Source of the DNA: Pseudomonadota bacterium
Lineage (GTDB): Bacteria > Chloroflexota > UBA5177
Assembly (NCBI GenBank): GCA_021324655.1
Contig: JAJPIP010000089.1
Location: 1 to 63,417 of the forward strand
Direction: 5' to 3'
DNA: 63,417 bases
Numbering within the stretch: position 1 is the stretch's first letter; each line of letters opens with the position of its first letter. Below, in pieces: positions 1,055 to 13,748 of this stretch. Below the pieces are notes generated by a model, which saw nothing but the letters and a program-made list of their open reading frames with translations, did not search any database and had not been told where the DNA came from. The position numbers were made by a program, and so were the translations under genes.

Positions 1055-1531
1055 ATGGCAATGGTGTATGAGCGGGGGCCCGCGCAGCGTCAGAACGTCC
1101 AGAAGATGGGAGGAGCATCCAGTCTCGCCGATCTCCTTAACGTCATCCTTGACAAAGGCATCGTCGTCGACGCATGGGTGCGTCTCTCCGTCATCGGGAT
1201 CGAAATTCTGACGCTGGAAGCGCGCGTCGTGGTAGCTTCCGTCGAAACGTATCTGCGCTATGCCGAGGCGATCGGACTGACACAGCTTGCGTCGGCGCCG
1301 CCGCAGACCGCGCAGAATAACAATCAGGGCAATGGGACCAATGGCCACCGTCAACTGTCGCAGCGCGAGGTGATGGGATATCTCGAGAACCACCCGGACG
1401 GCGTGCGATTGGGTGAAATGCAGGCATACTTCGACGCGCCGCGCGACCGGCTGCAGGAGATGCTGAGCAGTCTGGTCAATGAGGATCAGGCGCGAGAGGA
1501 GCACAACACGTACTACCCCGCCAATCACTAG
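1055..1531 (+). CDS. gvpA: gas vesicle structural protein GvpA with C-terminal winged-helix-like extension
   Basis: This is the main shell protein of gas vesicles. Residues 23-75 match the GvpA core ([19 protein letters not shown], then [20 protein letters not shown]). A typical GvpA has about 70 residues; this one has 158. After a linker rich in Q and N (81-100), residues 101-155 ([20 protein letters not shown] ... [19 protein letters not shown]) read as a helix-helix-helix-hairpin pattern like a winged helix. The fold of that tail is an inference. The start has a good ribosome site (AAAGGAG, 10 bases upstream). It is the first gene of the gvp operon and has no other plain GvpA copy nearby, so it is probably the shell subunit. 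A role as a minor J-type subunit cannot be excluded. Confidence 0.85.
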
Positions 1532-1594: not shown

Positions 1595-2665
1595 GTGGAG
1601 GGCATCTACCTGTACGCCATTACGGGGGGAACACTTCACCTCGGTCCCGACGTCCACGGGCTACCGGACGGCACCACACGCGTTTCCACGCTGACCATCG
1701 CCGACTTGACGGCAGTGGTGAGCCCGTACTCCGGCCCGTCGTTCGACGATCTGCCGCGGGCTGAGATCCTCCAGAACCTTCTGGCACATCAGCGCGTGCT
1801 GGAACAGGTCCTACCGGAGCAGACGGTCCTTCCGGTCAAGTTCGGTACAGTTCTTCCGGCCGAACGGACCATCGAAGCCGCCCTGGAGCGCTACCGGCCG
1901 CGACTGACAGACGCACTTCATGAGGTTGGCGACGCCGTGGAGATTGACCTATCGGTGGCGTGGGACTCCGCAGCCATACTCAATGAGATCAGCCACGAGC
2001 CGGACGTGCGAGCGATGGTCAGCGCCGTGACCGGCAGCGGTCAGCAGGGCGATGTGGCGACACAGATCAGCATTGGACAGTTGGTTCACGAGACGCTCGG
2101 GCGGCGACGCCAGGAGCTGCGGCGGAGCATGCTGGACGATCTATTGCCGCTGGCGCGGGATGCGGAGCCAAGCCCTGTCCCGGCTGACGAATTGGTCCTC
2201 AACGTGGCCTTTCTGGTTGATCGCCCCCAACTTCGAGAGTTCGAGGCAACCGTGGATCGCCTCGGAACGCGGCATGGTGACCGGCTGACCTTCCGCTATG
2301 TCGGCCCCCTGCCGCCGTATAGCTTCGCCACGGTGGTGATTGGTCAGCCGAATTCCGACGAGATAGGCAGCGCGGCTCGTGCCCTGGACCTGGGCGAGCA
2401 GTTCACGCGGGGTGATCTGCGGGCGGCATATCGGCGGCGGGCGGCGGAGACGCATCCGGACGTGCAGCCGGACGACACGGGGCGGCAGCACCACTTCACG
2501 GAGATCACCGCCGCCCACGACTCCCTGGAGAAGTACGTGGCGAGCCTAGAGACCGGCTCAGGGGCCGGCGGAGACGTCACGTACGATGTGCGGCCGGAGG
2601 TTCTGGCCTCCCAGGTCACATTGCGCATCGTGCGCGGCGATGAGTCGGGAGCGCTCGAGACATGA
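1595..2665 (+). CDS. GvpF/GvpL family protein fused to a J domain
   Basis: GvpF/GvpL proteins are assembly factors that bind GvpA. The family signatures are visible: IYLYAIT at the N-terminus, LPVKFGTVLP near residue 88, and YVGPLPPYSFA near residue 235. The family normally ends soon after this point. Here about 100 residues follow, and within them residues 262-315 read as a J domain: LGEQFTRGDLRAAYRRRAAE followed by THPDVQPDD. The diagnostic HPD tripeptide is at residues 287-289 and helix III (HHFTEITAAHDSL) comes after it. J domains recruit and stimulate Hsp70, so this protein may bring DnaK to nascent shell protein. The start is GTG with GAGGAG upstream. Its end overlaps the next gene as ATGA. 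Confidence 0.85.
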   Translation: MEGIYLYAITGGTLHLGPDVHGLPDGTTRVSTLTIADLTAVVSPYSGPSFDDLPRAEILQNLLAHQRVLEQVLPEQTVLPVKFGTVLPAERTIEAALERYRPRLTDALHEVGDAVEIDLSVAWDSAAILNEISHEPDVRAMVSAVTGSGQQGDVATQISIGQLVHETLGRRRQELRRSMLDDLLPLARDAEPSPVPADELVLNVAFLVDRPQLREFEATVDRLGTRHGDRLTFRYVGPLPPYSFATVVIGQPNSDEIGSAARALDLGEQFTRGDLRAAYRRRAAETHPDVQPDDTGRQHHFTEITAAHDSLEKYVASLETGSGAGGDVTYDVRPEVLASQVTLRIVRGDESGALET

Positions 2666-4563: not shown

Positions 4564-4781
4564 CCGAACCACTTCCTGCGTCCCAGCGGGCAACTCTACT
4601 CGACCTGCTCGATCGCGTCATCGACCACGGCGTCGTGCTGGCCGGAAACGTGACGATCACGGTGGCGGATGTCGACCTGATCTATCTCGAACTGCGCGTG
4701 CTGTTGGCGGCGGCGGAACGCCTGACGTCCCTATCGCGCAAGAGCGATGTGACACATGACGTCGAGGTCGCGCGTGACTGA
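4560..4781 (+). CDS. GvpA-fold minor subunit, GvpS/GvpM-like
   Basis: This 73-residue protein has the GvpA-family core: LLDLLDRVIDHGVVLAGNV (helix and start of strand 1) followed by ITVADVDLIYLELRVLLAAA. The wording VLAGNVTITVADVDLIYLEL, rather than the WARVSLVGIE of GvpA, fits the minor GvpS/GvpM branch, which helps nucleate or initiate vesicles. GTG start at 4560, overlapping the upstream stop. It has no C-terminal extension. The next gvpF/L gene begins inside its last codons. Confidence 0.82.
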   Translation: MTEPLPASQRATLLDLLDRVIDHGVVLAGNVTITVADVDLIYLELRVLLAAAERLTSLSRKSDVTHDVEVARD

Positions 4782-5508
4782 CCGCGCGTCTCACCACAAG
4801 TACGTCTACGCCATCGTGCCCGCATCGGCGAAGATGCCTCCCGACCTGCGGGGACTGGACGGCGCCGTCCTGCACTTGATCTCCAATCGTGAGCTCGCGG
4901 CGATCACCAGTCCGGTCGAGCCGGGCGCGCTCGCCACCACGAAACACGTGTTCCAGCACGAGCGGACCCTGGAGGCCGTGCGGGAGACCGTTCCGGCGCT
5001 TCCCGTTCGGTTCGGCACGATCCTGCCTGACGATGCCTCCGTCGTCGCTGCCCTCGAAGACGGCTATGACAGCCTGATCGCCGACCTCGACCGGCTGGGG
5101 GACAAGGTTGAGATGGGGGTGACTGCCGTCGCCGCCGCCGCTCCGTCCCCGCCTGCGCCGGCAGACGCCGCGGCCGCGGCGGGCGGGCCCGGCAGTCGCT
5201 ACCTGCGAGCCAGGGTGGAGGAGTACCGCCGGGAAGAGTCCGACCGCCGGGCGGCCGAGCAGATGGGGAGGGACCTGGACCGCGTACTGATTCCGCCCGC
5301 CCTCGAACGCCGGCGGCTAGCAGACAGGGAGCCCGCCAGGCTGCGAGCCGGCTACCTGATAGATCCGGCCTCGGTGCCGATCTTCCGCGAGAGGGTCGAG
5401 CGCTTCCGCCTGTCGCGGCCCGACCTGCGCGTCGTGCTGACCGGGCCCTGGCCACCCTATACCTTCGTGAGCAAACGCGGAGCGCAGCGGACGGAAGGGA
5501 GGACGTGA
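4774..5508 (+). CDS. gas vesicle protein GvpL/GvpF, fourth paralogue
   Basis: The fourth GvpF/L paralogue has HKYVYAIVPAS at the N-terminus, LPVRFGTILP in the middle and VLTGPWPPYTFV near the end. It has an alanine/proline-rich insert around nucleotides 5130-5190 (encoding AAAAPSPPAPADAAAAAGG) that the other three lack. I chose the GTG at 4774, which has GAGGT upstream and overlaps the previous gene by eight bases. The ATG at 4756 is an in-frame alternative. The stop overlaps the ATG of the next gene. Confidence 0.85.
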   Translation: MTDRASHHKYVYAIVPASAKMPPDLRGLDGAVLHLISNRELAAITSPVEPGALATTKHVFQHERTLEAVRETVPALPVRFGTILPDDASVVAALEDGYDSLIADLDRLGDKVEMGVTAVAAAAPSPPAPADAAAAAGGPGSRYLRARVEEYRREESDRRAAEQMGRDLDRVLIPPALERRRLADREPARLRAGYLIDPASVPIFRERVERFRLSRPDLRVVLTGPWPPYTFVSKRGAQRTEGRT

Positions 5509-6275
5509 TGGCCGACGAGCCGCCCCAGACCGGAGAGAAGCGTGAGGACGACACGACGGGGGCTCACCTCGAGCCCATCCTGAAGGAAGAACTGACTGCC
5601 GCAATGGAACCTGTGGCTCAGGAATTCGGAGACGAGTTGGCACGTGTCCTGCGTACGGAAGTAGATCACGTTATCGAAAAACGAGGGGCGCAGGCCCATG
5701 AAGAGGAGAATACCGGGGCGCGCCAACCGGGTGCCCGACGTCAAGAACGGCGAAAACCACCGCCACCTAGTAGGCGCGGTAGAAGCGCACCGCATCGATC
5801 TGTAGCCGATAGAGGAGGTAGTCCCATGACCGCTGAGGCCCAGACCCAGGATCAGGACCAGCAGCAAGCCGACCAAACGCCACCGACCAATAACGCCGGG
5901 ACGTCTCAGGCCCACACCGCGTCGCACAGTGAGACCACGCCGGCTCAGGGCGCAGCGGAGGATCAGGCCGGTCCACAGGCGCAGGCGAATCAGTCGGATC
6001 GTACCGAACAACAGAGATCGAAGCCTCTCACCTACGTCTACAACCCAAGCAGCGCCATTCAGGCCGGGCTGATAAACCTCGCGACTCAGTGGAAAGAGAC
6101 GGGCGCGGTCTATCAAGCGATCCACGCGTACACCGAGGTGCTTACCCGCTACCCGAACACGGGTGCTGCGGCTGCAGCCACGGAGGGGCTCCTCGATCTA
6201 GCGAGCAAGCTGGAGCAAGAAGGCCGCTTCTACGCGGCGCTTAGCATCTTCCACAAACTGGAGGTTCTTGTGTGA
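5508..6275 (+). CDS. P-motif helix protein with basic linker and TPR-like C-terminus
   Basis: 255 residues, no named family recognised. Residues 30-44 (TAAMEPVAQEFGDEL) carry the A-x-x-P-V helix that recurs in five other proteins of this island. The middle is low-complexity: first Arg/Pro-rich, then Gln/Thr-rich. The last 85 residues form paired helices (LINLATQWKETGAVYQAIHA ... YTEVLTRYP ... LLDLASKLEQEGRFYAALSI) with the small-large spacing of tetratricopeptide repeats. Good ribosome site (GGAAGGGAGG) and coupling to the preceding gvpL/F. It overlaps gvpK by GTGA, so it is embedded in the gvp operon. A strong internal ribosome site at 5812 suggests a second, shorter product starting at 5826. 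Confidence 0.7.
   Translation: MADEPPQTGEKREDDTTGAHLEPILKEELTAAMEPVAQEFGDELARVLRTEVDHVIEKRGAQAHEEENTGARQPGARRQERRKPPPPSRRGRSAPHRSVADRGGSPMTAEAQTQDQDQQQADQTPPTNNAGTSQAHTASHSETTPAQGAAEDQAGPQAQANQSDRTEQQRSKPLTYVYNPSSAIQAGLINLATQWKETGAVYQAIHAYTEVLTRYPNTGAAAAATEGLLDLASKLEQEGRFYAALSIFHKLEVLV
5812..5828 (+). promoter_or_regulatory. internal Shine-Dalgarno and ATG inside the 5508 gene
   Basis: GAGGAGGT at 5812-5819 lies six bases before an in-frame ATG at 5826. This is the best ribosome site of the neighbourhood and would give a 149-residue protein (MTAEAQTQDQ ...) containing only the Q-rich linker and TPR-like part. The protein segment just upstream (Arg/Pro-rich) looks like non-coding sequence read through. 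So the locus may be two former genes now joined in one frame, or one gene with two starts. Confidence 0.5.
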
Positions 6276-6688
6276 CCAGGCCCGGGTCCGGCGCGCCCCG
6301 GCACGCGGGAGAACTCAACCTGGACGACAGACCGACCGGTGATCTCGACGCGCTCGAGGGCATCACCCGCGACCTGTCGCGATACGGCGTCCTCTCCGAG
6401 CCGGGCGATGTGGACCTGGATCTACCCGGACGCATCGCGCTTGATCCCGAACGGGTGGAGCAAGGTCTCGCCCGGCTCGTTCTCTCGCTCATCGAGCTCT
6501 TGCGTCGTCTTATGGAGAGGCAGGCGATCCGCCGCATCGACGCCGGGTCGCTGAGCGACGATGAGATCGAACGGCTCGGCGAAACGTTTCTGAAGCTTGA
6601 CGAAAAAATGCAGGAATTGAAGGCTGCATTTGGGTTGCAGGACGATGACCTCAACATCAATCTCGGCCCCCTAGGCGACCTGATGTAG
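6272..6688 (+). CDS. gvpK: gas vesicle protein GvpK
   Basis: 138 residues. The GvpK signature is clear: IALDPERVEQGLARLVLSLI, then ELLRRLMERQAIRRIDAGSL and SDDEIERLGETFLKLDEKMQ, ending with the acidic DDLNINLGPLGDLM. GvpK is required for vesicle formation in several systems and may act in nucleation. GTG start at 6272 in a GTGA overlap with the previous stop. The N-terminal 40 residues are a variable extension. Confidence 0.92.
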   Translation: MTRPGSGAPRHAGELNLDDRPTGDLDALEGITRDLSRYGVLSEPGDVDLDLPGRIALDPERVEQGLARLVLSLIELLRRLMERQAIRRIDAGSLSDDEIERLGETFLKLDEKMQELKAAFGLQDDDLNINLGPLGDLM

Positions 6689-6757: not shown

Positions 6758-7168
6758 GTGAACGACGGTACAAACCGCGGCGCACCTATGACCGCCTATC
6801 GACGCCCGCTCCCCGCGCACTCCGAGCCCACCAACCTCGCCGACCTGCTGGAGCGCGTCCTCGACAAGGGTATCGTGATTGCCGGGGATATCACGCTGGC
6901 GCTCGCCACCATCGACATCCTCACCATCAAGGTGCGATTGCTGATCGCGTCCGTTGATAAAGCGCAGGAAATGGGCATCAACTGGTGGCAATCGGACCCG
7001 TTCCTGTCGAGCAAGACCAAGGAATTAGAAGACGAGCGCGACCAACTGCTCGGGCGCATCCGCCGTCTTGAAGCGCGGCTCGGCGTGGAGTCCGACGAGG
7101 CGAAGGAACTGGACGCGACCGCTCGCGACGAGGTGGGGGACGCATCGGAACCGGAGGGCGGCCGCTAG
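6758..7168 (+). CDS. gvpJ: gas vesicle protein GvpJ-like (GvpA fold)
   Basis: A 136-residue member of the GvpA/J family. The core (NLADLLERVLDKGIVIAGDI, then LALATIDILTIKVRLLIASV) is followed by DKAQEMGINWW, a typical GvpJ ending of the fold. The C-terminal tail (about 70 residues) is charged and helical, containing KELEDERDQLLGRIRRLEAR. GTG start with AGGGAG upstream. Its stop codon abuts the stop of the convergent gene at 7169, leaving no intergenic space. GvpJ is thought to sit at the vesicle tip or to nucleate assembly. Confidence 0.85.
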   Translation: MNDGTNRGAPMTAYRRPLPAHSEPTNLADLLERVLDKGIVIAGDITLALATIDILTIKVRLLIASVDKAQEMGINWWQSDPFLSSKTKELEDERDQLLGRIRRLEARLGVESDEAKELDATARDEVGDASEPEGGR

Positions 7169-7837
7169 CTAGAGCGCGAACAGCACCTGATACCCCTCGA
7201 TCTCGGGGTCGCCCAGAATGAACGGCCGAATCTCGGGGACGGTGTCTTCCAGGGTATGGCTGGTCATCGCGTCCAGCTCACTTTCCCAGAGCGTAATCGT
7301 GATTCCTTCGGTAGTTCCTGGGTTACCGAGCACGTAGGCCCCGAGAAACCCCTGGGCGTTCTCGAAGACGCCGGCCAGCTGCTCGCGCCAGAGCTTGATG
7401 GTATCCTCCGCGTTCAGCACTGTTCCGGGCATGGCGGTGGTTGTCATGATCCGGGCGTAACGGGGTATCCCGCTCGTCTTCACACGCTCGCCGTCCTGAC
7501 TGGTTTGATTCTGCTCGGCGTCGGCGCGACCTCCCGTCTGCGCCCCGGACCCGGCCGCCGACTCGTCGGCGGCCGGCACGCCACCCTGCGCCGCGGGCCC
7601 AGAGCTCTCCAACGAGTTTTCTTCGCTGTTTGCGGCGGTTTGTGCTGGCCGCGCGGTCTCGGCGCGCGCCCGCTGTAACTGCTGACGGATGGCCTCGGCC
7701 ACTTCCTCGCCGAACGTGTTGAGCACCGGTTGGAGGGCCTGAGTGATGTTACGATCCATCATTTCGCCCAGCGCCTTGCCTGCGTCGACCCACTGCTCAT
7801 CAACCGACGCATGCTGGTCATTCTGCGTTGACGTCAT
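7169..7837 (-). CDS. P-motif helix protein with ABM-like C-terminal domain
   Basis: 222 residues. Residues 32-46 (TQALQPVLNTFGEEV) are the same A-x-x-P-V helix seen in the neighbouring island proteins. A low-complexity linker (55-115) leads to a compact domain at about 125-222: RYARIMTTTAMPGTVLNAED, a helix (WREQLAGVFENAQGFLGAYV), then ITLWESELDAMTSH. The beta-alpha-beta order and the 'aggregate then travel' phrasing resemble the dimeric alpha/beta barrel of antibiotic-biosynthesis-monooxygenase (ABM) proteins. The match is by pattern only. ATGA coupling to the upstream small gene (7834-8058). This pair is transcribed against the gvp operon. Confidence 0.65.
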   Translation of the reverse strand: MTSTQNDQHASVDEQWVDAGKALGEMMDRNITQALQPVLNTFGEEVAEAIRQQLQRARAETARPAQTAANSEENSLESSGPAAQGGVPAADESAAGSGAQTGGRADAEQNQTSQDGERVKTSGIPRYARIMTTTAMPGTVLNAEDTIKLWREQLAGVFENAQGFLGAYVLGNPGTTEGITITLWESELDAMTSHTLEDTVPEIRPFILGDPEIEGYQVLFAL

Positions 7838-8187: not shown

Positions 8188-8273
8188 TGCGGGCGACCTA
8201 ACCCGCCGGCGAGGGCGGTTCTCCGGCCACGGCTGGACGGGCCGTGGCGTGTTCCCTAACGAAGGAGGGCATG

Positions 8274-9218
8274 GTGACTACGGAGGTTGGAGGGGGCGAG
8301 CCGGCGCAGCAGTCCCCGGACGAAGCGCGCAGTCCCAACACAAGCAGCGGTCAACGCGGAGCGCTGAGCCAGGCGCTGCAAGAGCAGATCGCCCAGGCAG
8401 TGGCGCCGATCATGGGCGAACTGCAGAGCCAGATCGCGCAGGCGGTGCAGCAGCACGTGGACCAGGCGCGTGACATGAGTCCTCAGGAAACGCACGACCA
8501 GGTGGACCAGGCACTTGAGCCAATTCGCAGCGAGGTGGAGCGGACCATGCAACAGACGATGGAACAGCAAGACCAGAACACGCAGAACGGTGCCCCCCAG
8601 ACAGAGCGCGAGACTCGGCCGGCCGGCAATCAGTCGTCCCAGCCGCAAGACCAGCAGCAGAACCAGCCGCATGGTCAATCGCAGTCCGGCGGACCAAACG
8701 AGCAGGCGCAGGGCCAGCCATCTGGTCAGCCCCAGCAACAGGAGCAATCCGACCAGCAAGGACAGGAACAGGAGTCACCCATCAAGCTCGCCGCCATGCA
8801 GACGGGTGACGCTCTCAAGAAGACGGTTCAGTGGCTGGTCAAGACCCTGAGGGCCCTGCTGCAAACAGTGCGTTACCTCCTGGAGGCAGTCGCCTATCTC
8901 TTGAAGACGCTCGTGGTTGCCCTCAAGGAAGGCGTGGTCAAGATCGGCTCCGGACTCGGTCACGTGGTCCACGCCATCGGCCAGTGGGCGCTCGGCCTGG
9001 TGAAAAACCTCCTGGGCAAACTCTGGCATGCCTTCGGCACTCAGTTGCTCCAGCGGGCCCTCCACTGGATCGAGTCGCTGGGCGGTAACGATGAGTCAAG
9101 TCAGCCGGCCGGACAGAGCCAGGCGAATCAGCAGCAAAGTCAGCCGGAGGGCCAGGCAGGTTCGCCCGGAGGACAGCAGCAGACCCAGCAGCAACCGGCG
9201 CCGGCAAGCGCGGGCTAA
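8274..9218 (+). CDS. P-motif helix protein with long amphipathic heptad helix
   Basis: 314 residues from GTG 8274 (AAGGAGGG upstream). The ATG at 8271 sits too close to the ribosome site. Units AQAVAPIMGELQSQI (40-54) and DQALEPIRSEVERTM (78-92) are the island's 15-residue P-motif. Residues 95-168 are Q-rich. At 184-218 five perfect heptads follow one another (TVQWLVK, TLRALLQ, TVRYLLE, AVAYLLK, TLVVALK), then a weaker amphipathic stretch to about 265, then another Q-rich tail. A helix with one broad hydrophobic face and no charge-free 20-residue span suggests surface association rather than a true membrane span. No enzyme domain is seen. Confidence 0.7.
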   Translation: MTTEVGGGEPAQQSPDEARSPNTSSGQRGALSQALQEQIAQAVAPIMGELQSQIAQAVQQHVDQARDMSPQETHDQVDQALEPIRSEVERTMQQTMEQQDQNTQNGAPQTERETRPAGNQSSQPQDQQQNQPHGQSQSGGPNEQAQGQPSGQPQQQEQSDQQGQEQESPIKLAAMQTGDALKKTVQWLVKTLRALLQTVRYLLEAVAYLLKTLVVALKEGVVKIGSGLGHVVHAIGQWALGLVKNLLGKLWHAFGTQLLQRALHWIESLGGNDESSQPAGQSQANQQQSQPEGQAGSPGGQQQTQQQPAPASAG

Positions 9219-9331: not shown

Positions 9332-10360
9332 GTGAGCACGAACCAACACCCGGAGCAGCAAGGACAGCCGTCGCCCGCGCCCGAAATACACGGGCATGCC
9401 GGCGACGGACAGCCCCTGGATCCAGCGTTCCAGCAGCAGATCCAAAAGCAGCTCCAAGAAGCCATTCGACCTGTGCTGGCTGATTTTCATCTGCAGGTCG
9501 AACAAGCAGCGGAGAGAATGGTGCAGACAGATATCCAGCACGACACGAACGGCAAGGGTGGCGCCGAGAACTCCCAACAAGTCGTGGCGCGATCGGACGC
9601 TGAGACCGGCGCGGCTCCTTCCCCAGGTCAGCAATCCTCCGGGGCGCAATCTTCACCCCAGACGCCGGACAGTGAGCAAGACTCGGCCACGGCTGACGCC
9701 AATCCCGCCGGCGGCGGCACAGGCGACATGCAGTTGCCGGCGCGGCAGGAATCGTCTGCGGTTACGTCGAGTCAAGGTGGCGCATCGACAGGGCAGCCAC
9801 AGTCAAGCTGGCAGCAACTCCAGCAGGCCGCGGTGCGACTGGCGGAGCGGCAGGCTGAAGCCTGGTTGCAGGCCGTGCTTGTCTCCGGATTGGATGCGAT
9901 TCTGGCCGAACCGATGCGGGCACGAGCACAGCAACGCGCTGAAGACGGTTTGCGCGCCGCATTGAATAAGGCTTTCGAGCCCTTGCCGAAGAACGCCACC
10001 ATTCGCGAGCTACGGGAGCAAACCGAGCGGACTCTCAGCGCAATCCTGCGTGAAGTTCTGGACACCGTGTACGCGCCACAGGTCAGGTCGGACCTCGAGC
10101 AGCGCGGAAAGTCCATCAGCCGCGACCTGAGCCACGGAGAATTTAAGGGCGGCCTTCAGCAGGGAGAAGACGCTCTACGCATGCTGGTGGAGGCGCTCAT
10201 CCCCGTGATCAGACGTCAGTGGCAGCGACTGCTTCGTCTCTTGTTGCGCATGATCCTTATCGCCTTGCAGGACACGCTCGGCTCTGACGCCGGCGAGAGC
10301 CTCACGAGTCTCACCGCAGAGCCGGGGCAAGCCTCGAAGTCCGGTGAATCTTCGGCTTGA
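9332..10360 (+). CDS. P-motif helix protein with helical C-terminal domain
   Basis: 342 residues, GTG start with GAGGAG nine bases upstream. The N-terminal P-motif is QEAIRPVLADFHLQV (42-56). A Q/S/P-rich linker spans about 70-155. The C-terminal 170 residues are predicted all-helical from their Leu/Ala spacing (LQAVLVSGLDAILAEPMRAR, TLSAILREVLDTVYAP) and end in a basic-hydrophobic helix (RRQWQRLLRLLLRMILIALQ). There is no match to a family I know. It shares architecture with the 8274 gene before it and the 10515 gene after it: short helix, disordered linker, helical effector part. Confidence 0.65.
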   Translation: MSTNQHPEQQGQPSPAPEIHGHAGDGQPLDPAFQQQIQKQLQEAIRPVLADFHLQVEQAAERMVQTDIQHDTNGKGGAENSQQVVARSDAETGAAPSPGQQSSGAQSSPQTPDSEQDSATADANPAGGGTGDMQLPARQESSAVTSSQGGASTGQPQSSWQQLQQAAVRLAERQAEAWLQAVLVSGLDAILAEPMRARAQQRAEDGLRAALNKAFEPLPKNATIRELREQTERTLSAILREVLDTVYAPQVRSDLEQRGKSISRDLSHGEFKGGLQQGEDALRMLVEALIPVIRRQWQRLLRLLLRMILIALQDTLGSDAGESLTSLTAEPGQASKSGESSA

Positions 10361-10514
10361 CGCGGGCATGAAAGATGCAGAGATGGGCGCACCAAGCGGA
10401 GCCGCGATCCGCCTGGACCGGGGAGACGAGGTTTGCGCCCTGCCGGGCGCGAAGAGCGAGTTTCCGGAAGCATACAGTCAGTACTGATCGCGGCGTGGTG
10501 TAAAGGAGGTCAGC

Positions 10515-11237
10515 GTGACGGTCGACCAACAGCAGACGAGCGAGCAACGCGACTCGGAAGGGAAGCAAGATCAGAATCAGGGCACGCAGCCGACCGGGCA
10601 GAGCAGCCAGGGGCAGGAGGGTAACCAGTCCCAGCCGCAGAGCAACCAGCCCGAAGGGCAGAGCGGCCAGAATCAGCAGCACGGCGGGGAGCATCCGCAG
10701 GGTCAGTCAAGTGGCTCGCAGTCACAGGGTCAGAGCGGACAGTCCGGACAGTCCCATTCCCAGGGCTCGGCAGGCTCGAGCCAGCAACAGGGGCAGCAAA
10801 GTGGACAGCAGTCGCAAGGTCAGGGGGGCCAGCAGGCAGAAGCGGCTAGCGCCAACGCTCTGAGCAATGTCTTGCAGCAGCAGATCTCCCATGCCATGCA
10901 GCCGGTACTGCAGCAGGTGCAGCAGCAGGTATCGCAGGCCGTGCAGCAGCAGATGGATCAGGCGCTTCAGCCGGTGAAGGATCAGCTGTACAAGCAGGTC
11001 GATCAGGCCCTGGAGCCGGTGCAGCGGCAACTCGAGCAGCAGGCCGACAAGGCGATGCAGCCTGTGCGCGAGGAGCTGCACAAACAGGTCGAGCAATCGC
11101 TGGGACCGGTGCGCCAGGAACTCCGACAGCAGGTCGACGAATCGATGCAGGAAGTTCGGAAGGAGTTGCAACAGCAGGTCGAGCAGGCAGTTGCCTCCGC
11201 CTTCTCGGTCGAGGGGCAGGGCAGTTCGTCGCAATAG
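10515..11237 (+). CDS. Q-rich P-motif protein with tandem 15-residue repeats
   Basis: 240 residues, GTG start with AAAGGAGGT. Residues 3-107 are almost entirely Q, S, G, N and E. From residue 125 the protein is built of 15-residue units: SHAMQPVLQQVQQQV, then after an eight-residue SQAVQQQM come DQALQPVKDQLYKQV, DQALEPVQRQLEQQA, DKAMQPVREELHKQV, EQSLGPVRQELRQQV and DESMQEVRKELQQQV. Fifteen residues in four turns (3.75 per turn) would favour a right-handed coiled coil. Repeats of a helix on a vesicle surface recall GvpC, but GvpC repeats are about 33 residues and not of this sequence, so the name GvpC is not given. Confidence 0.7.
   Translation: MTVDQQQTSEQRDSEGKQDQNQGTQPTGQSSQGQEGNQSQPQSNQPEGQSGQNQQHGGEHPQGQSSGSQSQGQSGQSGQSHSQGSAGSSQQQGQQSGQQSQGQGGQQAEAASANALSNVLQQQISHAMQPVLQQVQQQVSQAVQQQMDQALQPVKDQLYKQVDQALEPVQRQLEQQADKAMQPVREELHKQVEQSLGPVRQELRQQVDESMQEVRKELQQQVEQAVASAFSVEGQGSSSQ
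10956..11180 (+). repeat. five in-frame 45-bp repeats coding for 15-residue units
   Basis: Each 45-base unit codes for one D/E-x-[AS]-[LM]-x-[PE]-V helix unit of the 10515 protein. A further unit at 10887-10931 is separated by a 24-base spacer. The units differ at many third positions, so this is an old, selected array rather than a recent slippage product. Confidence 0.75.
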
Positions 11238-11376
11238 CTGATGGCGGCCGGCACGAGACAACCTGCTGATGTTGTCAGCACTATGAGATATGGGACCGCC
11301 GGCGCCTGCCGGCGGTCCTGCAGTACGGGCAGGACGGATCCGGCGCACGAGTCACGATGGCCCAAAGGAGATAGAG

Positions 11377-12345
11377 ATGACCACTGACAGCGAGCAGTAT
11401 CTGGTGGAGACAGTGCCGCGCGCGACGCCATCAACCGACAGCGCGTCAGAACCTCCTGCCTCCGACCAGTCCAATGGACATGATCCGTTCTCTGCGCTCA
11501 GCCAACTGCAGCGGCAGATGATCGACACGATCCGCAATCCGCAGGCCGCACGTGAGGCGTGGCTACGAAACGTTCTACGTGAGTCGGGCGGGCCTTCGAG
11601 CAACGGACAGAATCCGTCGGTGTCGCCGCCGGGGCTGACTCTCTCCATCAGCCCTCAGGATCTTCGGACTACATTGACGGCTATCCTCGATACCGCGTCG
11701 GACGACCTCTTCTCACCGCAGCTCAAAGAAGCGATCGAGAAGCGATTCGGTCAGATGTCCGAGGCGTTGACCGCCGGCATGCGTAAGGCCAAAGTGCCGG
11801 CAGCCGCCATGAAGGAAACACAACCAGAGCTGGACCGGATTCGTGGCGATCTGGTGGAGGCGATGTTCTCGGAGTCACTCCGCCGACAGTTCCATGAGGA
11901 TGCGGAGCTTGCGGTCGCCGCTGTCCTGGGTGGTGACCTGCCGAGTGCACGCCAGTCCGCCCGCACGGCGATGCAATCCCTTGTGCAGCGACGCGCGGAC
12001 ATCATGGCGTCGCATTACGAGCAACTCTATGAGACGTCCCTGCGTGCCGCGGTGGCCGGAATCCAGGAGAAGCTCGGCTCGTCAGCGAAACCGGAGACCC
12101 ACGAAAGAACGCAACCGGACGGGAAAGCCGCGGACAACAACGGCTCCCGCGCATCCGCCCAGCCCGGTGCGATGCCTGACACCCTGAAACGATCTCCCAA
12201 GGCAGCGCAGACGGTCTGGCAGCGCGCCTACGACCGCGCTGCCAGAGAGCAAGGTGAGGGACGGAAGGCGGAGCGAGCCGCCTTCCAGGTACTGCGTGAG
12301 CAGTACGAGAAGAAAGGCGACCGCTGGGTCAAGAAGGCATCGTGA
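11377..12345 (+). CDS. gas vesicle island protein with ChaB-like C-terminal domain
   Basis: 322 residues from ATG 11377, preceded by AAAGGAGATAG. An open frame reaches back to 11290 without a ribosome site. The N-terminal 270 residues are helical with a disordered beginning and no recognised domain. Residues about 273-320 (PKAAQTVWQRAYDRAAREQG ... RAAFQVLREQYEKKGDRWVK) resemble ChaB, a small helical family with the pattern of a W/A-x-x-A-Y helix, an A-x-x-V-A-W-x-x-V-K helix and a K/D-x-W-V-x-K end. The role of ChaB is poorly known. The gene lacks the P-motif of its neighbours but overlaps the next gene, which has it (GTGA). Confidence 0.6.
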   Translation: MTTDSEQYLVETVPRATPSTDSASEPPASDQSNGHDPFSALSQLQRQMIDTIRNPQAAREAWLRNVLRESGGPSSNGQNPSVSPPGLTLSISPQDLRTTLTAILDTASDDLFSPQLKEAIEKRFGQMSEALTAGMRKAKVPAAAMKETQPELDRIRGDLVEAMFSESLRRQFHEDAELAVAAVLGGDLPSARQSARTAMQSLVQRRADIMASHYEQLYETSLRAAVAGIQEKLGSSAKPETHERTQPDGKAADNNGSRASAQPGAMPDTLKRSPKAAQTVWQRAYDRAAREQGEGRKAERAAFQVLREQYEKKGDRWVKKAS

Positions 12346-13748
12346 CGGACGAGCCGACCCCCTTGATCGTCGAGCGGCGCCCGGCTCCAGTATCCGGGGG
12401 CCCCGGTCCGGACGAAGACAATGCGTCAACTCCGGCCGTGACTGACGCCATCCGGGCACAGGTGGCTGAGATGATGGCCCCGGTGCTCTCCGAGTTCAGC
12501 CGGCAGGCTGCCGAGACCGCCCGCGAACGCATTACGCGGGCCGCGCCGGCCATACGCGCCACTATGGAGCGAGAAGTCGATCGCGAGGTGAGGCAGGCGC
12601 TGCAAGAAACAGAACACGATCTGCCGCGGCCGGCCGAGCCGGCTCGTGCCCAGGCTCGGGCAGACACGACCCATCAGCCCCTAAAAAGCCCCGCCGCGCC
12701 AGAGGCACCGCGCCGGTCCGAGGACGGTACCCGGCACGCGGACCAGTCCTCGGATGGCCATCAGTCCGCACCGCACCCTGCCCCCGACGGGCAGAAGGAG
12801 CGAGAAGCGTCGACCCAGTCTGAGGCCCGCAACTCTCTCGACCACCCGCATGACACTGGCTCCCTTACCACGCACTCCGCCCCCTCCAGCCAAGAGGAGC
12901 ATGAACAGAAGAACGAATCTCCCTCTCTGCTCAGCCAGTTCCTGGACTCGCTCCGCGCCGCGGTCCCCGCGGTCATGGAAGAGGGCGCCGACGAACTCGC
13001 TGTCGTGTTTATCGATCGCCTGCTGGACGACGTGTTCTCGGAAGAATCGCGACTGAAGGCCGAGGAGGAAGCGGAAGATGGCGCACGTGAGCTCCTGTCG
13101 CGGGTCGCCGGACCACCAGGTGGCGCCGCGGCATCACCTCTAGACCCGCGCACCGAGCGCCAGGTGTATGAGCTTGCACGCGAGATGGTGAGTGCCCTCT
13201 ACGAGGGACCGCTGCGCGAGCAGATACGCCAGCATGCGGTGGCGGCCGCTGGAGATCTCGTCCACCAGGATGTCGACGGCGCAGAACAGGAAGGGAAAGA
13301 GGTGCTCAGTGCCCTTCTGCACGCGGTGCTCCGGGTCCTGGGGCAGCATGCAGCGGAGGTCACGCACATCGCGCTCAAGCTAGGTACTGCGGCGGCCGCT
13401 GAAGCCGCACAGGAGAAAGTTGAAAGCGCCACCGAGGAAGCGCGAGACGAGCTGGAGGAGGCGCCGCAGGAGTTGCGCGGCCGGGCCCGCGACACGCGGG
13501 AAGAACTGCAGGACCGCACGGCAAACCTGCGCGACCGCCTGCAGGAGACCGTCAGTACGATCCGGGAACGCGTCGGCACGGCTCGCGACGGTATCGACGA
13601 GCGAATGGAAGCGCGGCGCCCCCCGAGCACGGGAGGCGTGGGCCGGCACCCCTCCGCGGGCTCCCGCCTCGGCCGGCATCCCGGCGCCGGTGGACGGCCG
13701 CCGCGCGGACCGAGCGGCAGGCCGCCGTCGTCGGGCCCGAGGCGCTAG
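12342..13748 (+). CDS. P-motif protein with coiled-coil tail
   Basis: 468 residues, GTG start overlapping the previous stop. P-motif at 42-56 (AEMMAPVLSEFSRQA). A long charged, proline-containing linker (75-195) is followed by a helical middle (QFLDSLRAAVPAVMEEGADE and on). From about 364 comes a strongly charged coiled coil (EEARDELEEAPQELRGRA, NLRDRLQETVSTIRERV). The last 45 residues are Gly/Pro/Arg-rich. The coiled coil resembles the small 7834 protein on the opposite strand. This is the last gene of the island; about 170 bases of untranslated DNA separate it from the hsp20 promoter. No enzymatic motif seen. Confidence 0.65.
   Translation: MTDEPTPLIVERRPAPVSGGPGPDEDNASTPAVTDAIRAQVAEMMAPVLSEFSRQAAETARERITRAAPAIRATMEREVDREVRQALQETEHDLPRPAEPARAQARADTTHQPLKSPAAPEAPRRSEDGTRHADQSSDGHQSAPHPAPDGQKEREASTQSEARNSLDHPHDTGSLTTHSAPSSQEEHEQKNESPSLLSQFLDSLRAAVPAVMEEGADELAVVFIDRLLDDVFSEESRLKAEEEAEDGARELLSRVAGPPGGAAASPLDPRTERQVYELAREMVSALYEGPLREQIRQHAVAAAGDLVHQDVDGAEQEGKEVLSALLHAVLRVLGQHAAEVTHIALKLGTAAAAEAAQEKVESATEEARDELEEAPQELRGRARDTREELQDRTANLRDRLQETVSTIRERVGTARDGIDERMEARRPPSTGGVGRHPSAGSRLGRHPGAGGRPPRGPSGRPPSSGPRR

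Follow-up and report, generated by a model that had tools for sequence, protein, structure and literature searches.

A protein of 240 residues encoded in a gas-vesicle (gvp) cluster of a Chloroflexota genome carries tandem 15-residue repeats, which are predicted to form one long amphipathic helix with a spacing of 3.75 residues per turn. The protein has no detectable homology to GvpC, the known vesicle-strengthening repeat protein. Our favored reading, held with slightly less than even confidence, is that it is an accessory rod on the gas-vesicle surface that would work like GvpC without being GvpC.

The window, the whole 63,417-nucleotide stretch of DNA analyzed here, belongs to a 3.8-Mb genome (96% complete), and its first part (~1–14 kb) is the gvp cluster (Table 1). 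The cluster contains an extended gvpA, a gvpF/L-DnaJ fusion, further gvpF/L-like genes, a gvpG-like gene, gvpK, and gvpJ, and then a run of accessory genes. The DnaJ domain (PF00226, E 7.2e-8) is joined to GvpF/L at window positions 1595–2665, and this same stretch aligns with long GvpF/L relatives from other gvp loci. A ChaB-domain protein (PF06150, E 1.2e-12) is also encoded inside the cluster, at 11290–12345.

Table 1. Features of the gvp cluster and of the repeat protein in the window, and 33-residue-repeat proteins of other gvp loci.
Feature	Position	Strand	Basis
gvpA with winged-helix-like C-terminal extension	1055–1531	+	NCBIfam GvpA, 108.8 bits (cut-off 100); extension by profile
gvpF/L family gene	4756–5508	+	PF06386, E 6.2e-44
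Tag in m1 (gene 5505–6275; TPR-like C-terminal domain)	5574–5669	+	E 2.0e-10
gvpK	6272–6688	+	PF05121, E 3.6e-35
gvpJ-like gene, GvpA family	6758–7168	+	PF00741, E 2.9e-15
Tag in m2 (gene 7169–7837, minus strand)	7670–7765	-	E 4.1e-13
Tag in m3 (gene 8244–9218), followed by one repeat-class unit	8370–8465	+	E 5.4e-11
Tag in m4 (gene 9332–10360)	9434–9529	+	E 1.9e-9
Strong Shine-Dalgarno sequence aaaggaggt ahead of the GTG start	10502–10510	+	Direct reading
15-residue-repeat protein gene, 240 aa	10515–11237	+	ORF; homologues; codon-position pattern
Low-complexity N-terminal tail, residues 1–105	10515–10829	+	Composition: 36 Q, 21 G, 20 S
Tag of the repeat protein, residues 118–149	10866–10961	+	Motif HMM, 42–43 bits
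Unit 1, ISHAMQPVLQQVQQQ, tag class	10884–10928	+	
8-residue spacer VSQAVQQQ	10929–10952	+	Same place and length in 4/4 homologues
Five contiguous 15-residue units, repeat class, MDQALQPVKDQLYKQ to VDESMQEVRKELQQQ	10953–11177	+	
Partial last unit VEQAVASAF	11178–11204	+	
Tag in m6 (gene 12342–13748)	12447–12539	+	E 5.6e-11
33-residue GvpC-like proteins	L066:14533–16053; L082:14–1153; L083:15243–17186; L099:16661–17740; L100:14252–15658		

The repeat array extends from Ile124 to Phe230 (nucleotides 10884–11204) and is read as 15-8-15-15-15-15-15 residues followed by a partial unit. The preliminary description had counted five contiguous units and a separated one, each of exactly 15 residues, at 10887–11180; the count is borne out, and the array proves slightly wider. 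The D/E-Q-A-L-x-P-V residues that it took as fixed are mostly so, except that the acidic residue at position 2 is missing from the separated unit 1 and that Glu replaces Pro in the last full unit. Autocorrelation of the protein with BLOSUM scores gives z = 11.1 at lag 15 and z = 9.4 at lag 30, and none of 3000 shuffles exceeds z 5.2 at any lag. A 33-residue period is absent from the protein (z = −1.0 at lag 33).

Homologues of the repeat protein, with 46–49% identity over the helical part, are found in three other Chloroflexota genomes (G195, G306, and G346), and all four genomes bear gvp clusters. Two of the three homologues lie inside gvp regions, and the G306 copy lies on a separate 5-kb contig of that gvp-bearing genome. 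The 15-residue period is present in all three, as the preliminary description expected of homologues. The units are arranged as 15-8-15x4 in G195 and as 15-8-15-19-15-15 in G306 and G346, where the 19-residue unit follows the first full repeat; the 15-8-15 start is common to the four genomes. The N-terminal tail varies in length and sequence. Over 83 codons, the copy in the window differs from that of G346 at 24 first, 14 second, and 45 third codon positions, a pattern that shows constraint at the protein level. The Q-rich composition could invite the view that the period arose by chance in a low-complexity sequence. This view is refuted, since shuffles of the same composition come nowhere near the observed values, the period and the spacer are kept in four genomes, and the codon pattern is that of a constrained protein; it has virtually no chance of being correct.

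Relatives were sampled from 400 genomes of the phylum screened for gvpK. A profile search of two orders (47 + 61 = 108 genomes) detected the repeat protein only in G195, G306, and G346, and a motif HMM run against 7881 ORFs of 71 sources gave matches confined to the four genomes, the next ones being noise. Reversed ORFs gave nothing better than E 2.7. No relatives of the repeat protein were found in plasmids and viral contigs or, in a search without a positive control, among 18 genomes of other collections that bear gvp genes. A 15-residue lag at locus L100 was traced to a short segment in a protein that is not related. Searches of Pfam, NCBIfam, and PDB with the repeat protein returned only sub-threshold amphipathic-helix matches, and PHROGs gave no match for the three proteins tried. 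A search of the open-access literature turned up no account of a 15-residue gas-vesicle repeat. GvpN above the curated cut-off is found in none of the four genomes.

Within the units, positions 1, 5, 8, and 12 are occupied by large apolar residues, position 4 mostly by Ala, and position 7 by Pro. Hydrophobicity peaks only once in the spectrum, at 95–96° per residue, corresponding to 3.75–3.79 residues per turn, and the hydrophobic power is 22.7 at 96°, 0.0 at 100°, and 0.3 at 103°. The periodicity is thus 15/4, as had been proposed, with almost nothing at the heptad spacing, and an ordinary heptad coiled coil is rejected. AlphaFold2, with an alignment of four sequences behind the fold, predicts one continuous helix in the repeat region (residues 2–131 of 136) with a moderate mean pLDDT of 75.5; disorder of this region is accordingly not supported. 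By this prediction, the protein possesses amphipathic α-helical tandem repeats, a trait of GvpC. It also possesses a trait of right-handed 15/4 coiled coils, namely a 15-residue period with a 3.75-residue apolar spacing.

Unit 1 and the 8-residue spacer together best match a motif in neighboring proteins, which is called the tag here. In the home genome, all significant matches to the tag lie in six genes of the one gvp cluster, and none lies elsewhere. In the other three genomes, tags are found in m3-like and m4-like proteins, with two tags per m3-like protein in G195 and G306; the tag in the m4-like protein of G346 was masked by the composition correction of HMMER and was recovered by alignment and pattern. 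Each of the four genomes encodes at least three tagged proteins, the repeat protein counted. The tag pattern has 0 matches in reversed ORFs (1.14 million residues) and two false, membrane-protein-like matches in the forward set. The short helical motif common to the six cluster proteins is probably a docking tag. The search of the open-access literature likewise turned up no account of a tag shared among Gvp accessory proteins.

The TPR-like domain of m1 is found by itself in other gvp loci. With an internal Shine-Dalgarno sequence and an ATG at 5827, m1 can be read as one gene or two, which weakens its interpretation as a clean tag-TPR fusion. A weak match of m2 to the ABM monooxygenase family (E 0.012) is below the cut-off. 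The C-terminal domain of m4 is predicted with moderate confidence to be a helical bundle and has no PDB match at E ≤ 0.001.

Two classes of units are distinguished. In the tag class (n = 16), position 9 is hydrophobic in all units and position 2 is seldom acidic. Of the 17 later units, which make up the repeat class, 14 have Arg or Lys at position 9 and 15 have Asp or Glu at position 2. This class is a derived one, distinct from unit 1 and the 8-mer. The protein had previously been regarded as a multivalent version of the neighbors' motif. The motif is indeed common to the neighbors, but the later units with Arg9 and Asp2 form a separate class; the protein consists of a tag and, behind it, a rod of derived repeats, and a multivalent copy of the neighbors' motif is too simple a description.

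These features bear on an alternative in which the 15/4 stripes pair as a right-handed coiled coil and the protein is an oligomerization scaffold, with the tagged neighbors as its clients and the shell not its direct target. The value of exactly 3.75 residues per turn, which is the right-handed pentadecad signature, the occurrence of the motif in five other cluster proteins, and the minimum of three tagged proteins in every genome all agree with such a scaffold. However, all 16 tags and 14 of 15 repeats have Pro at position 7, away from the apolar face, and coiled coils do not usually carry such a regularly conserved Pro. With position 9 hydrophobic in the tags but Arg or Lys in most repeats, tag and repeat have no single core in common, and no solved coiled coil has similarity at E ≤ 0.001. 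The tetramerization domain of VASP, a right-handed coiled coil, has the same 15-residue period and 3.75 residues per turn; it has no sequence match to the repeat protein, which differs in its conserved Pro. A kinked helix lying on a surface explains the conserved Pro7 at least as well as a right-handed coiled coil does, and we regard the scaffold as unlikely.

GvpC is an outer gas-vesicle protein of cyanobacteria and haloarchaea. In published work it follows the GvpA ribs as a long amphipathic helix with 33-residue repeats, 33 residues corresponding to four GvpA (PMC9994262, PMC10185304). The repeat protein resembles it in being encoded in a gvp cluster, in its long amphipathic helix (predicted here) of tandem repeats, and in its Q-rich composition. 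It differs in repeat length (15 residues, against 33 in GvpC and 32–38 in haloarchaea), in the Pro of nearly every unit, in the shared tag, and in a poorer fit to the GvpA spacing. The absence of a sequence relation to GvpC, stated beforehand, is confirmed: PF01304 has no match at E ≤ 0.1 in the protein or in the whole home genome, hhalign gives a probability of 0.2% against the repeat consensus of Anabaena flos-aquae GvpC (PMC9994262), and the period is 15, not 33. The 21-residue repeats at the C terminus of A. flos-aquae GvpJ (PMC10903477) are also short tandem repeats of unknown function in a gas-vesicle protein, but they have another period and are joined to a GvpA-family domain.

In a search of 52 gvp-bearing genomes of Chloroflexota, PF01304 never scored above its cut-off. 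A lag scan and then a profile revealed 33-residue GvpC-like repeat proteins in Chloroflexota gvp loci (Table 1). These proteins share the phylum, the kind of cluster, and helical tandem repeats with the 15-residue protein, and differ in their period of 33 and in that several end in a winged-helix domain, which here sits on GvpA. They occur in 19 of the 48 genomes without the 15-residue protein and in none of the four with it. This mutual exclusion is not significant with four genomes (p ~0.15) and is suggestive only. The winged-helix-like domain forms the C terminus of GvpA in three of the four genomes and ends several 33-residue GvpC-like or similar helical proteins in other loci. Among the loci that carry it by profile (window 1055–1531; L058, L076, and L007; L066, L080, L082, L099, and L100), no single one has it on both GvpA and a helical protein. 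Taken together, the 33-residue pattern and the distribution of this domain suggest that the 15-residue protein plausibly fills the place of GvpC in these clusters. A place on the outside of the vesicle would be unexpected for such a winged-helix-like domain.

The fit to the GvpA ribs was evaluated with the spacing in PMC9994262. A straight helix of 15 residues (22.5 Å) covers 1.77–1.86 GvpA spacings; the values are 2.24–2.36 for 19 residues, 0.94–0.99 for 8, and 3.9–4.1 for 33. Eight residues match the GvpA spacing well, whereas 15 and 19 match it poorly. A strict ruler of one unit per two GvpA fits only poorly, and the lattice arithmetic counts mildly against a strict GvpC-like register. On an ideal α-helix, the apolar stripe drifts by 60° per 15 residues; the drift is the same per 33 residues and has already been noted for GvpC. 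The conserved Pro is about 107° (repeats) or 133° (tags) from the center of the apolar face. A kink from this side would bend the apolar face inward. The bend needed on a vesicle is 3–5° per unit, and a full proline kink of 26° per unit would give a radius of ~5 nm, too tight for a mature cylinder. In view of this geometry, we give the surface rod slightly less than even confidence and regard the coiled-coil scaffold as the next most likely reading.

In the surface rod that we favor, the low-complexity Q/G/S tail, probably disordered, would stick out from the N-terminal docking helix, that is, the tag. Four to five 15-residue repeats would lengthen this helix into one long amphipathic helix, and its apolar stripe (positions 1, 4, 5, 8, and 12) would stay aligned, given the spacing of 3.75 residues per turn. 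The Pro found in almost all units may let the helix unwind slightly, with the apolar side bending toward the convex surface. A helix of this kind in vivo would bind the GvpA shell and may reinforce it, and the five tagged neighbors would probably be brought to the same surface through their tags. A GvpC-like role of the protein is thus plausible. More tentatively, a proline-marked helix of ~30 residues may be a modular vesicle-docking tag, of which one member became the 15-residue-repeat rod that replaced GvpC.

The tails might instead be the working part. In that case, Q/G/S-rich tails would form a brush or condensate with the helix as an anchor, and the protein would be a clustering or solubility factor like GvpU/GvpT of Bacillus megaterium, which act on the extended C terminus of GvpA (PMC10903477). 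Long Q-rich tails or linkers are present in the repeat protein and several tagged neighbors, and G306 GvpA also has a Q-rich tail. This reading appears improbable, since it is the repeats that are conserved, whereas the tail is only ~40 residues long in G195 and has more charge and more lysine in G346.

The apolipoprotein plan consists of amphipathic repeats punctuated by Pro, which the present repeats resemble, and sub-threshold Apolipoprotein matches are found for the repeat protein (E 1.1e-4) and m6 (E 9.3e-6). The protein could then coat lipid or polyester inclusions in the manner of an apolipoprotein or a phasin, with its gene merely sited in the gvp cluster. However, these matches are far under the curated cut-offs (22.5 bits against 90 for PF01442), and the family is found only in genomes with gvp clusters, which makes such a coat very improbable. 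The 3-11 helices of perilipin 4, apolipoproteins, and α-synuclein (PMC5889406) are likewise slightly unwound, amphipathic tandem helices that coat a curved apolar object; their period is 11/33 (3.67 residues per turn), and perilipin 4 coats lipid droplets.

Engineered GvpC is used to tune ultrasound contrast agents. If the surface rod is correct, shell reinforcement would have arisen more than once, and these Chloroflexota would possess a second, unrelated way to coat a gas vesicle. The portable docking helix would then be a new short tag to decorate gas vesicles, and the 15-residue arrays would offer a natural test of repeat length against the GvpA lattice.
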